A DNA stretch of 64,000 nt, taken from positions 124,001 to 188,000 of the forward strand of contig SWJS01000001.1 of assembly GCA_007556525.1 (NCBI GenBank). Direction: 5' to 3'. A program made the position numbers and the translations under genes. This DNA is from Lysobacteraceae bacterium CU05-9. GTDB taxonomy: Bacteria > Pseudomonadota > Gammaproteobacteria > Xanthomonadales > Xanthomonadaceae. Shown here one piece after another: positions 13,026-56,083 of this stretch; within the stretch, counting starts at the first letter, position 1; each line of letters begins with the position of its first letter. The notes under the pieces were generated by a model. That model saw only the letters and a list, made by a program, of their open reading frames with translations, did no database searches and had not been told where the DNA came from.

Positions 13026-13511
13026 CTAGCGGAGTACTCCTGGCAGTCCAGGTGCCGGCGACAATGAGCTCGCGCCGTTGAACTTGAAGGTCTGTCTGCT
13101 GCGCTTCTCCGGCACCGCAACAACAGTTCCGGTCAGACGGTAATTCAATGTTGTCTTGCGTGCTAATGCATCGGCGACTGCGGCTTTGCCGACGATGTTG
13201 GGTTCGACATTGATTTTGATGATGTCCGGCGATTCCGGTCCAACCGTCATCGCAATCGCTTGATTCACTGTTGCAGCATCCTGTCCATCAATCGTCATCT
13301 TCAAATTGACGGAATCAAATTGCATTGGAATGGAGCTGTAATTCTGGATGCGCAAATCCACGCTCCAACTGCCACTTGGCAAAACTTGAATCTGCTGAAA
13401 ACTCACCGCCGGATCCGAAACACGCCGCACCGGCCCCGTCGCACACGCTGTTGCCAACGTGGCCGCGGCGATCGCTCCGATCAACAAGTGTTTAGATAGT
13501 TTCAGTTGCAC
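13026..13511 (-). CDS. LEA type 2 family lipoprotein
   Basis: A 161-residue protein with a lipoprotein-like signal (LATAC, Cys23). One immunoglobulin-like LEA_2 / water-stress domain follows: WSVDLRIQNYSSIPMQFDSVNLKMTIDG (about residues 49-76) contains the typical N-x-(N/S)-x-P-(L/M)-x-(F/V) turn. The later strands MTVGPESPDIIKINVEP and LNYRLTGTVVAV complete the sandwich. Bacterial members are periplasmic or outer-membrane-anchored proteins of unknown function. Start is a GTG at 13509-13511 with GGAG upstream. The gene is divergent from the nuclease gene at 13556, only 44 nt away, and the same A/T element may serve both. Confidence 0.8.
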   Translation of the reverse strand: MQLKLSKHLLIGAIAAATLATACATGPVRRVSDPAVSFQQIQVLPSGSWSVDLRIQNYSSIPMQFDSVNLKMTIDGQDAATVNQAIAMTVGPESPDIIKINVEPNIVGKAAVADALARKTTLNYRLTGTVVAVPEKRSRQTFKFNGASSLSPAPGLPGVLR

Positions 13512-13537
13512 AGACTCACTCCTCTAACTCGTACTCT

Positions 13538-13546
13538 AACTATAAT
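13538..13546. promoter_or_regulatory. Shared, near-symmetric -10 element between LEA-2 and RecB-like nuclease genes
   Basis: The plus strand reads TATAAT (13541-13546), 9 nt before the nuclease ATG at 13556. The minus strand reads TATAGT over 13538-13543, about 26 nt before the LEA-2 GTG. The rightward transcript would be almost leaderless and the leftward one would carry a normal GGAG leader. No convincing -35 box is visible for the rightward promoter. Confidence 0.4.
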
Positions 13547-54766: not shown

Positions 54767-55237
54767 TTGAAAGCCCGCTTGGTCGCAGTCGGCGAACGCG
54801 CGCCCAAGTGGGTCGCGGAAGGCTTCGCGGATTACCGCAAACGCCTCTCGCACTGGCTGCCTTTAGAACTCGTTGAAGTCGAACCCGGCCTACGTGGTAA
54901 GGGTCGCGACACTGCGCGTGCGATGACGGAAGAGGGCGACCGCGTCCTCGCTGCCATCCCCCGCGGCTCTCACCTCATCACGTTGGACGTTCCCGGCAAA
55001 CCGTGGACTTCCGAACAGCTCGCCGTCCGCATGGAACACTGGCGTCATCTCGGACAAGATCTAGTATTTGCCATCGGTGGCCCCGAAGGTCATTCCGATG
55101 CCGTCAAAAATGCCGCCGCCGAATCCTGGTCTCTCGGACCACTGACGTTGCCGCATATGCTGGTGCGCTTGGTGGTGATTGAGCAACTTTATCGAAGCTG
55201 CGCGCTACTGGCTAACCACCCATACCATCGAGCATAA
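54767..55237 (+). CDS. rlmH: 23S rRNA (pseudouridine(1915)-N(3))-methyltransferase
   Basis: A 156-residue SPOUT methylase of usual length. LVAVGERAPKWVAEGFADYRKRL (4-26), LDVPGKPWTSEQLA (about 70-83), FAIGGPEGHSDAVK (about 101-114) and the knotted C-terminus LTLPHMLVRLVVIEQLYRS with ANHPYHR are all present. Start is TTG at 54767. Its TAA stop (55235-55237) is part of the left arm of a long inverted repeat that fills the gap to the convergent SIMPL gene. Confidence 0.96.
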   Translation: MKARLVAVGERAPKWVAEGFADYRKRLSHWLPLELVEVEPGLRGKGRDTARAMTEEGDRVLAAIPRGSHLITLDVPGKPWTSEQLAVRMEHWRHLGQDLVFAIGGPEGHSDAVKNAAAESWSLGPLTLPHMLVRLVVIEQLYRSCALLANHPYHRA

Positions 55238-55337
55238 GTTATAGGTAGAGGTAGACTATTTAGTAAGAGCGCACAAGCGCTCAAGGCGCCTGCGGCAATC
55301 ACTGGATAGTCTACCTATACCTCTACCTCAGACTTAT
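55234..55337. repeat. Stop-to-stop long inverted repeat with unequal arms of AGGTAG units
   Basis: The left arm (55234-55259) reads ATAAGT, three bases, AGGTAG, AGGTAG, ACTAT. The right arm (55306-55337), on the other strand, reads ATAAGT, three bases, AGGTAG, AGGTAT, AGGTAG, ACTAT. The arms match except for one extra 6-nt unit. The ATAA ends supply the rlmH stop and overlap the SIMPL stop. Inside, GAGCGC pairs with GCGCTC (about 55267-55282) in a small hairpin. Confidence 0.75.
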
Positions 55338-56083
55338 CGTCCCAGTTCAAACTGGACGTTAAGGGTGACAGAAACTTCAGATTCCCCTGGCATCACCGGC
55401 GTTGACTTCCCGGCAGCGTCGGCAGCCATTGCACGCATTGGAGCCGGGCGAGGATAGAAGCCTCCGGAATTTTGCTCATCGATCGAGACGATGCGGCGGA
55501 CGCGCATGCCGAGTGTTTGCGCATACATTTCCGCGCGGGCCTGGGCTTCCTTGAGCGCAGACTTGCGTGCGTCGTTCATCGCACCGGCTTCATCATCGAT
55601 GCTGAAATTCGGACCATTGAGCTGGTTGGCACCGGACGCGATCAGGATGTCCATGATCTTGCCAAGCTTCGACAAATCGCGGACTTTCACGCTCACCGTG
55701 TTGCTTGCCGAATAGCCGCGGATTTCAGGTGGTTGGTTGTCGCGGTAGTTGTAATCCGGGTTGAGATTGATGCCCGAGGTTTGAATGTCCTTCTCCGGAA
55801 TGCCGGCGGCGCGAAGTGCTTTGACGACCTTGTCCATCTGCGTGGCGTTGTCGCGCATCGCGGTGTTGGCATCGGCGGCGCGGGTCACGACGCCGGTCGA
55901 GAAGTTCGCGATGTCGGGAACACGCGTGGTCTTTCCGCTCGCGGCTACGTTGAGCAGCGTTGAGTCGGCGGCGATGATTGGTGTGACGGCTTGTTGTGCA
56001 GCGGCGTCGGATGGTGTCGACATGCCCAAAACTCCTAAGCTAATTGCGCTTGCCAACATCAGGGAACGTACGTTGAGGTACAT
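55334..56083 (-). CDS. SIMPL domain (DUF541) periplasmic protein
   Basis: A 249-residue exported protein with a signal peptide (about 1-28). The SIMPL domain runs from about residue 42: LLNVAASGKTTRVPDIANFSTGV opens it, MDKVVKALRAAGIPEKDIQTSGINLNPDYNY (about 83-113) is the family signature, then YSASNTVSVKVRDLSKLG and ALKEAQARAEMYAQTLGMRV. Members are envelope-stress or immune-signalling related proteins with unclear action. The end SEVSVTLNVQFEL is the last strand. GGAGAAAATC precedes the ATG. It is divergent from maf. Confidence 0.9.
   Translation of the reverse strand: MYLNVRSLMLASAISLGVLGMSTPSDAAAQQAVTPIIAADSTLLNVAASGKTTRVPDIANFSTGVVTRAADANTAMRDNATQMDKVVKALRAAGIPEKDIQTSGINLNPDYNYRDNQPPEIRGYSASNTVSVKVRDLSKLGKIMDILIASGANQLNGPNFSIDDEAGAMNDARKSALKEAQARAEMYAQTLGMRVRRIVSIDEQNSGGFYPRPAPMRAMAADAAGKSTPVMPGESEVSVTLNVQFELGR

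Follow-up and report, generated by a model that had tools for sequence, protein, structure and literature searches.

An inverted repeat fills the space between two convergent genes, rlmH and a gene for a SIMPL-domain protein, in the 64-kb stretch of DNA analysed here (hereafter, the window), and the question is what kind of element it is and how it came to lie there. The two stop codons are less than 100 nt apart in this genome, and the palindrome makes up almost all of that distance. The base-by-base reading of positions 55234-55337 bore out the original prediction that the gap between the convergent genes is itself an inverted repeat, since an imperfect one occupies nearly all of it, from 55237 to 55328 (Table 1). 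Read in the register of the other members of the family described below, each arm consists of three hexamers followed by a 16-nt tail, and AGTTAT and AGGTAT, found here beside AGGTAG, are usual variants of the unit in that family. The arms had been described as differing by one unit, two AGGTAG copies versus three. This was a register error, made because the outer ATAAGT letters were aligned, and the agreement of these letters is itself spurious, as they are unit sequence on the left and flank on the right. Slippage of units within the arms, which had been suggested on that basis, finds no support at this copy, where each arm has three units, and it is uncommon across the family. The repeat ends were also thought to supply or overlap both stop codons; this holds for rlmH, which has one base in common with the arm, but not for the SIMPL gene, whose stop codon lies outside the repeat.

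Table 1. Features of the rlmH-SIMPL palindrome and a further arm in the window (positions count from the first letter of the window)
Feature	Position	Strand	Remarks
rlmH (PF02590)	54767..55237	+	stop codon TAA at 55235-55237; last base common with left arm
Left arm, type A	55237..55270	+	PWM score 52.1; R1 model E 4.7e-10 (own genome)
Left-arm hexamers	55237-55242, 55243-55248, 55249-55254		AGTTAT, AGGTAG, AGGTAG, then ACTATTTAGTAAGAGC
Inner spacer	55271..55294	.	24 nt, GC-rich, with short palindromes
Right arm, type A	55295..55328	-	PWM score 45.5; R1 model E 2.6e-8
Right-arm units		-	AGGTAG-AGGTAT-AGGTAG-ACTATCCAGTGATTGC
SIMPL-domain gene (PF04402)	55334..56083	-	stop codon at 55334-55336, 5 nt beyond right arm
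Arm, type B	13508..13541	-	contains AGTTAGAGGAGTGAGT; core at C1:137514-137529

When folded as RNA, the stretch 55234-55337 has a minimum free energy of -47.8 kcal/mol, compared with -23.7 +/- 3.4 in shuffled sequences (z = -7.01; 0 of 200 shuffles equally good). A search with 4227 Rfam models at the gathering threshold found two tRNAs alone in the window and left the palindrome unmatched. In the relatives, the gap was measured where the SIMPL gene was on the + strand and rlmH was convergent, that is, in 3 of 20 loci (L098, L104, L110), and there the two genes are 1113-1256 nt apart.

The palindrome belongs to a dispersed family. A BLAST search of the own genome (G000; 15 contigs, 2.35 Mb) with the stretch 55234-55337 gave 63 matches, many of them counted on both strands owing to the palindromic form of the copies. 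The copy at C10:131092 is 89% identical to the rlmH-SIMPL palindrome over 94 nt, spacer included. A sequence-only model of 59 arms (R1), among them both rlmH-SIMPL arms, gave 102 matches in this genome at E <= 1 and 84 at E <= 0.001. There is also a second arm type, B. With up to one mismatch allowed, its core AGTTAGAGGAGTGAGT was found 32 times, 24 of these matches being exact, and the reversed control gave 0; no partner arm reaching the score threshold was found near the type B arm of Table 1. Both types follow the common plan (GAGNNN)3, type A being (GAGKTA)3 GACKATTNAGT and type B being GAGTNNGAGTNNGAGTTAGAGGAGTGAGT. In the fetched stretches of the genome 121 arms score at least 11, and the same stretches reversed contained no arm of at least 8 with the first matrix and none of at least 10 with the second; arm densities in these stretches are not the genome average, because the stretches were picked for holding matches. 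Neighbouring arms no more than 800 nt apart formed 46 inward-facing pairs and 8 other orders (five '--' and three '-+'). By a strict count, exactly three units are present in 60 of the 74 type-A arms of the fetched loci, and when one mismatch per unit is allowed, three units are found in 66, four in 4 and two in 4. The unit number is nearly fixed in the family.

A search for similar palindromes in this genome and in its close relatives had been proposed as a check. The genome itself contains them, as shown above, and the R1 model gave 0 matches in 59 relatives, a set that includes no genome of the same genus. A pattern allowing two mismatches had 77 matches in the own genome and, among 296 other genomes of the same bacterial family, one match each in 4, the reversed control giving 9. 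In the GTDB collection of 84,980 species, where the own genome is perhaps absent, there was 1 exact pattern match (a Clostridia MAG), and in IMG/VR there were 0.

The longest inward-facing pair, at C8:422766-423435 (670 nt), holds an open reading frame of 135 aa, which encodes the four-helix-bundle protein S23p (PF05635 '23S_rRNA_IVP', E 2.5e-32; TIGR02436, E 4.9e-32) and is related to PDB 2gsc (XCC0516; E 1.4e-15). Its match to DivGenRetAVD (E 8e-6, 26.1 bits) is under the cut-off of 80, and no catalytic family in Pfam or NCBIfam matched. The inverted arms are common to this copy and the rlmH-SIMPL copy, which has 24 nt between its arms and no S23p ORF. Moreover, the arm together with the adjacent hairpin is common to 13 other fetched loci, when the alignment is required to extend at least 11 nt past the arm (reversed control 0). 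S23p is carried by one of the 46 inward pairs and was the only gene seen between arms in the copies examined, with no transposase or reverse transcriptase there; the search of G000 for mobilising enzymes covered RVT_1 (PF00078) and Y1_Tnp, and neither has a match. The genome has five PF05635 genes, and all five lie between inverted arms of five different sequences, the other four loci having the units AAACCTG, GAAATGG and TGAAATC and the 19-nt arm AGGTAACGGGTAAAAGCTA, the weakest of them (score 16.5). Arrays of TGAAATC occur, as single arrays, at nine sites away from any S23p gene, and three-unit arrays of AAACCTG or GAAATGG away from S23p are represented by weak one-mismatch matches at three places alone. 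Some S23p arms have gene-less copies scattered in the same genome.

We examined whether S23p genes of other genomes also lie between inverted arrays. PF05635 is present in 63 of 149 genomes of the same bacterial family. Each locus was scored by its best inverted repeat without gaps, one arm lying in the 350 nt before S23p and the other in the 350 nt after it, and the score was compared with those of block shuffles of the same locus. The loci were a non-random set comprising the five own genes, the 30 best from the PF05635 list and 20 picked from its other rows. Among the first 35 loci, 2 were truncated by contig ends and were excluded, and 32 of the remaining 33 exceeded all of their own shuffles; so did 18 of the further 20, the loci not above the null being L123, L194 and L210. 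On plasmids S23p was found in 20 records, nearly all of them cyanobacterial; 12 of these loci were tested and 6 were above the null (L172, L173, L174, L175, L177, L180) and 6 were not. In total, 56 of the 65 S23p loci (53 from the same family and 12 on plasmids) exceeded the shuffled controls, as against 1 of 19 SIMPL gene loci used as control. A control with shuffled pairing reached at least 18 in 21 of 210 cases, with a maximum of 197. It was not clean, because the loci share units and homologous sequence, and therefore the per-locus shuffles and zones at 750-1100 nt were added. Among the 45 S23p loci with long flanks, a score of 16 was reached in 37 beside the gene and in 1 at 750-1100 nt away. 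The 52 loci (of 65) scoring at least 16 span 421-742 nt (median 448), G outnumbers C in the left arm of 50 of them, and their best period is 7 nt in 50, 6 nt in one (the AGGTAG family) and 10 nt in one.

A link between S23p and the arrays was seen at the level of whole genomes as well. When (GGGAHTS)3 arrays, a pattern that covers one unit type, were counted in the same 149 genomes, the median number of matches was 91 in genomes with S23p and 0 in those without, and at least 50 matches were found in 38 of the 63 and 3 of the 86, respectively. The reversed control was 0 in nearly all genomes; G033 gave 27 and 41, compared with 3 and 5 for the true pattern. Since kinship could cause such a link, the S23p labels were permuted within genera, which gave p = 5e-5, the floor for 20,000 permutations; the 20 genera of mixed content comprised 15 with a positive link, 2 negative and 3 zero. 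The link is not strict: seven genomes without S23p have at least 20 matches, and sixteen with S23p have fewer than 7 GGGAHTS matches, some of the latter having another unit, as G000 does. Dependence on a reverse transcriptase, considered by analogy with Avd, was rejected: RVT_1 is present in 11 and absent in 27 of the 38 array-rich genomes with S23p, and because it is lacking in these 27 and in G000, a reverse transcriptase is not required. S23p had no match in phage records, and none in PADLOC.

Comparison of related plasmids revealed S23p units that are present in one and absent in another. Plasmid1 of Calothrix brevissima NIES-22 (AP018208) has a 518-nt insertion that contains S23p and arrays of the GGGTGTA type in inverted orientation. 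It is placed after the stop codon of an integrase gene and before a codon homologous to the start codon of the gene that follows (in the record, this gene is annotated with a start further upstream). In Tolypothrix PCC 7601, Nostoc carneum NIES-2107 and Aulosira laxa NIES-50, the distance between these genes is 3 nt (L177 versus L186, L187 and L190). In pNsp_c of Nostoc ATCC 53789 (L180), the unit parts two genes for which a pair of Nostoc C052 plasmids (L188, L189) shows an overlap, TAATG; ATG is found on both sides of the unit, a possible 3-nt duplication in the comparison of L180 with L188 alone, and the next gene follows the right array after a further 30 nt or so. The unit of Nostoc edaphicum pNe_5 is absent in Nostoc C057 (L172 versus L185), and that of Anabaena 90 is absent in Dolichospermum UHCC 0315A (L173 versus L183; 98.8% identity over the 73% covered), where the site has a different inverted element (L183, 1106-1380) with GTAGGTTGGGTT and AACCCAACCTAC near its ends. 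Both L183 and L184 hold other palindromes at the corresponding site. The two Nostoc C052 plasmids contain gene-less inverted CAGGAGT-type arrays, in stretches of 146 and 317 nt at a position that measures 8 nt in pNsp_c. No consistent target-site duplication was found across the occupied and empty sites, and these pairs fit gain and loss alike, so that the two cannot be told apart. As a side observation, gene-less pairs (L188 831-1060, L189 and L184 1140-1460) vary in presence, length and unit among related Nostoc plasmids.

From these results, we consider it likely that the rlmH-SIMPL palindrome belongs to a genome-specific, S23p-linked family of inverted repeats, as one of its gene-less copies, non-autonomous and MITE-like. 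The full element would be one S23p gene between two inward-facing arrays of a short tandem unit, usually G-rich, the unit being mostly 7 nt and here 6 nt long. S23p, a homopentameric ring in the solved relative, may bind the units of the arms, in the form of DNA or RNA, and may let host enzymes copy or move the arm-bounded unit, in cis and in trans, into the ends of genes. An arm could give the upstream gene its stop codon, and since it can thereby close that reading frame, insertion at the end of a gene would be tolerated. We infer mobility, and the gene-less derivative of the S23p element has probably spread in trans. The original prediction offered a two-way transcription end or a mobile palindrome, and the latter was the better half of the guess, with arms common to an S23p unit and with presence and absence seen on related plasmids; the former is unsupported at the rlmH-SIMPL copy, which has no consensus terminator. 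More tentatively, and at somewhat less than an even chance, S23p with inverted tandem-unit arms could constitute a widespread class of selfish elements that have no transposase, in which the pentameric ring reads a self-specific array of 6-7-nt units and the host machinery copies the unit into gene ends. The heptamer repeats of Xanthomonas and Nostoc would then be gene-less offspring, and the intervening sequences of 23S rRNA would be members that landed in rRNA. Several points speak against the S23p-linked reading: the AGGTAG arms are built of 6-nt units and a 16-nt tail and are no pure heptamer array, a single pair among the 46 carries S23p, S23p matched no catalytic family, the plasmid sites show no consistent target-site duplication, and the link between S23p and arrays has exceptions in both directions.

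A different reading is that the palindromes are host-maintained bidirectional 3'-end elements, either terminators or RNA-stabilising hairpins, a role known for REP/BIME elements, and that S23p is incidental. The arms do abut stop codons, the outer end lying -5 to 0 nt from the last stop-codon base in 19 of the 52 type-A arms that face the 3' end of a gene, and the overlapping arms supply TAG or complete TGA, TAA or TAG. A terminator-like hairpin follows 24 of these 52 arms, compared with 5 of 52 in the reversed control and 5 of the 22 type-A arms facing a 5' end (Fisher, p 0.07), and the difference is clearer for all arm types together (33 of 80 versus 6 of 37, p 0.011). In addition, one pair lies 55 nt downstream of a 5S rRNA match (L038 2865-2960) and another 30 nt downstream of an SRP RNA match (L028 2244-2321). 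However, such a role does not account for the missing consensus terminator at the rlmH-SIMPL copy or for the orientation of the flanking genes, which for the 46 inward pairs is convergent in 18, tandem in 22, divergent in 3 and undecided in 3 (genes were called by a simple codon-usage caller, the start codons of which are uncertain). Co-variation of the arms, the mark of a maintained hairpin, was not found either. In the 19 A/A pairs the arms match at 25.68 of 34 positions, as against 26.44 after re-pairing, and about 98% of shuffles equal or exceed the former value, so that partner arms resemble each other, if anything, less than re-paired ones do. For all 46 pairs with G-U allowed, the match is 24.87 within pairs and 25.03 between different pairs. 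Because the A/A arms are no more alike than re-paired ones, recognition of each arm by itself is favoured, and because the match within pairs is no better than that between pairs, the hairpin itself is not kept by co-variation. The family was, moreover, not found in the 296 other genomes examined. We regard this reading as unlikely, and transcription termination as at most a side role of the palindromes.

It is likewise improbable that the inverted arrays are host repeats, born by slippage and having some function, and that S23p is a parasite inserting into them or kept near them. Seven genomes without S23p have at least 20 array matches, and GGGAATC arrays have been published as simple sequence repeats (PMC4692102). 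On the other hand, the S23p genes of one genome have different arms, AAACCTG and GAAATGG being nearly confined to their S23p gene, and at the same site of related plasmids the S23p units are missing together with their arms. Far less probable is dispersal by a RAYT (Y1 transposase), as in REP/BIME palindromes. These share with the present copies a palindromic form, an intergenic position adjoining stop codons and a GTAG within the arm. Y1_Tnp (PF01797) has 0 matches in this genome, which is 99.97% complete, and matched 5 of 14 control genomes, and the missing Y1_Tnp led us to discard this origin; besides, in REP elements GTAG stands at the foot of a short hairpin, whereas here it is found in tandem units. 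Finally, the hexamer periodicity would suit a chance palindrome or local slippage of hexamers, but the folding z of -7.0 and the 84 arms in the genome, with 0 in reversed controls, refute this, and we give it practically no weight. Possible likeness of the arm to TRAP, rut or DNA-uptake sites was considered as well. The reading as a gene-less member of an S23p-linked family is compared below with systems already described.

The intervening sequences (IVSs) of 23S rRNA are found in helices of the rRNA, from which RNase III excises them, whereas the AGGTAG units are intergenic at gene ends; a location of the IVS type was not found for the rlmH-SIMPL copy, which is intergenic. Short IVSs without an ORF occur in bacteria other than Coxiella burnetii. 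In C. burnetii, the IVS has an S23p ORF within terminal inverted repeats that form a 28-bp stem, with tandem heptamers GACAGAT near its 5' end that vary in number between strains, and the authors of that report termed IVSs parasitic genetic elements (PMC4990558). The AGGTAG family resembles this type in the S23p ORF, the terminal inverted repeats and the tandem units, and differs from it in that each arm holds an array of units and the gene-less copies number in the dozens. The heptamer repeats GGGAATC and GGGGA(C/T)T of Xanthomonas and Nostoc, as described by Rehm et al. 2015 (PMC4692102), are mostly intergenic and most often have four units. Two Xanthomonas genomes contain 186 and 183 GGGAATC arrays, with 70 and 75 cases of two closely facing arrays and an average distance of 28 nt from the end of the upstream ORF, and generally no association with mobile elements was reported there. 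The AGGTAG family is like the facing pairs in its intergenic inward pairs with few units per array, and is distinguished by a 6-nt unit with a fixed tail in place of a 7-nt unit able to form G-quadruplexes. The terms 'four helix', 'intervening' and 'S23' have 0 occurrences in the main text of PMC4692102. TAACTGA heptamers of Beggiatoaceae and some cyanobacteria are intergenic tandem repeats too, but they are direct, lie upstream of start codons and hardly ever form inverted pairs, and no link with S23p appears in the sections of PMC4679880 consulted.

Among dispersed elements, those of the REP/BIME type with a RAYT are palindromes adjoining stop codons. The AGGTAG copies are like them in this respect and unlike them in that the arms are tandem units and the genome has no RAYT. 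MITEs are alike in the gene-less state, in arms common with a gene-bearing copy and in their many scattered copies, but here the gene-bearing copy encodes S23p and not a transposase, and no clear target duplication was seen at the plasmid elements. Avd of the diversity-generating retroelements belongs to a related protein family and is described as resembling PF05635 (PMC10053308); here, there is no reverse transcriptase match in the genome. The ingredients have already been published separately, and the link between S23p and inverted arrays was not found in the literature searched, the CC-licensed articles of PMC, where no paper connected the two. The present reading joins S23p, a solved ring with no known function, the rRNA intervening sequences, whose mode of spread it would give, and the inverted heptamer repeats of Xanthomonas and cyanobacteria, whose origin it would give. 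If it is true, each S23p has a cognate unit beside its own gene, and therefore the binding target of an S23p could be read from the genome.

S23p genes inside cas or conjugation operons may be passengers. In CRISPR-cas operons, S23p was observed at L173 (1474-1842), L174 (1492-1851) and L182 (1486-1842), in the arrangements cas6-S23p-cas4 (type I-D) and cas10-S23p-cmr3 (type III-B). The Anabaena 90 gene lies between cas6 and cas4, within the unit that is missing from the related locus, and L182 has no inverted array. A 23S rRNA IVP is named in a figure on CRISPR-linked genes (PMC10910872).

The genome contains other dispersed repeats as well. One palindrome has the form TTTCAAAGGTTGAA ... TTCAACCTTTGAAA, with GTCCATGGACA nearby in some loci; exact TTCAACCTTTGAAA occurs 13 times in 9 fetched loci (L014, L016, L017, L063, L072, L073, L076, L085, L086), and in several loci this palindrome lies between arms of the AGGTAG family. 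A third repeat, GTGTCACAATTG, is found in 5 fetched loci (L010, L079, L087, L089, L090) and takes the palindrome form TGTCACAATTGTGACA in L079, L087 and L089.
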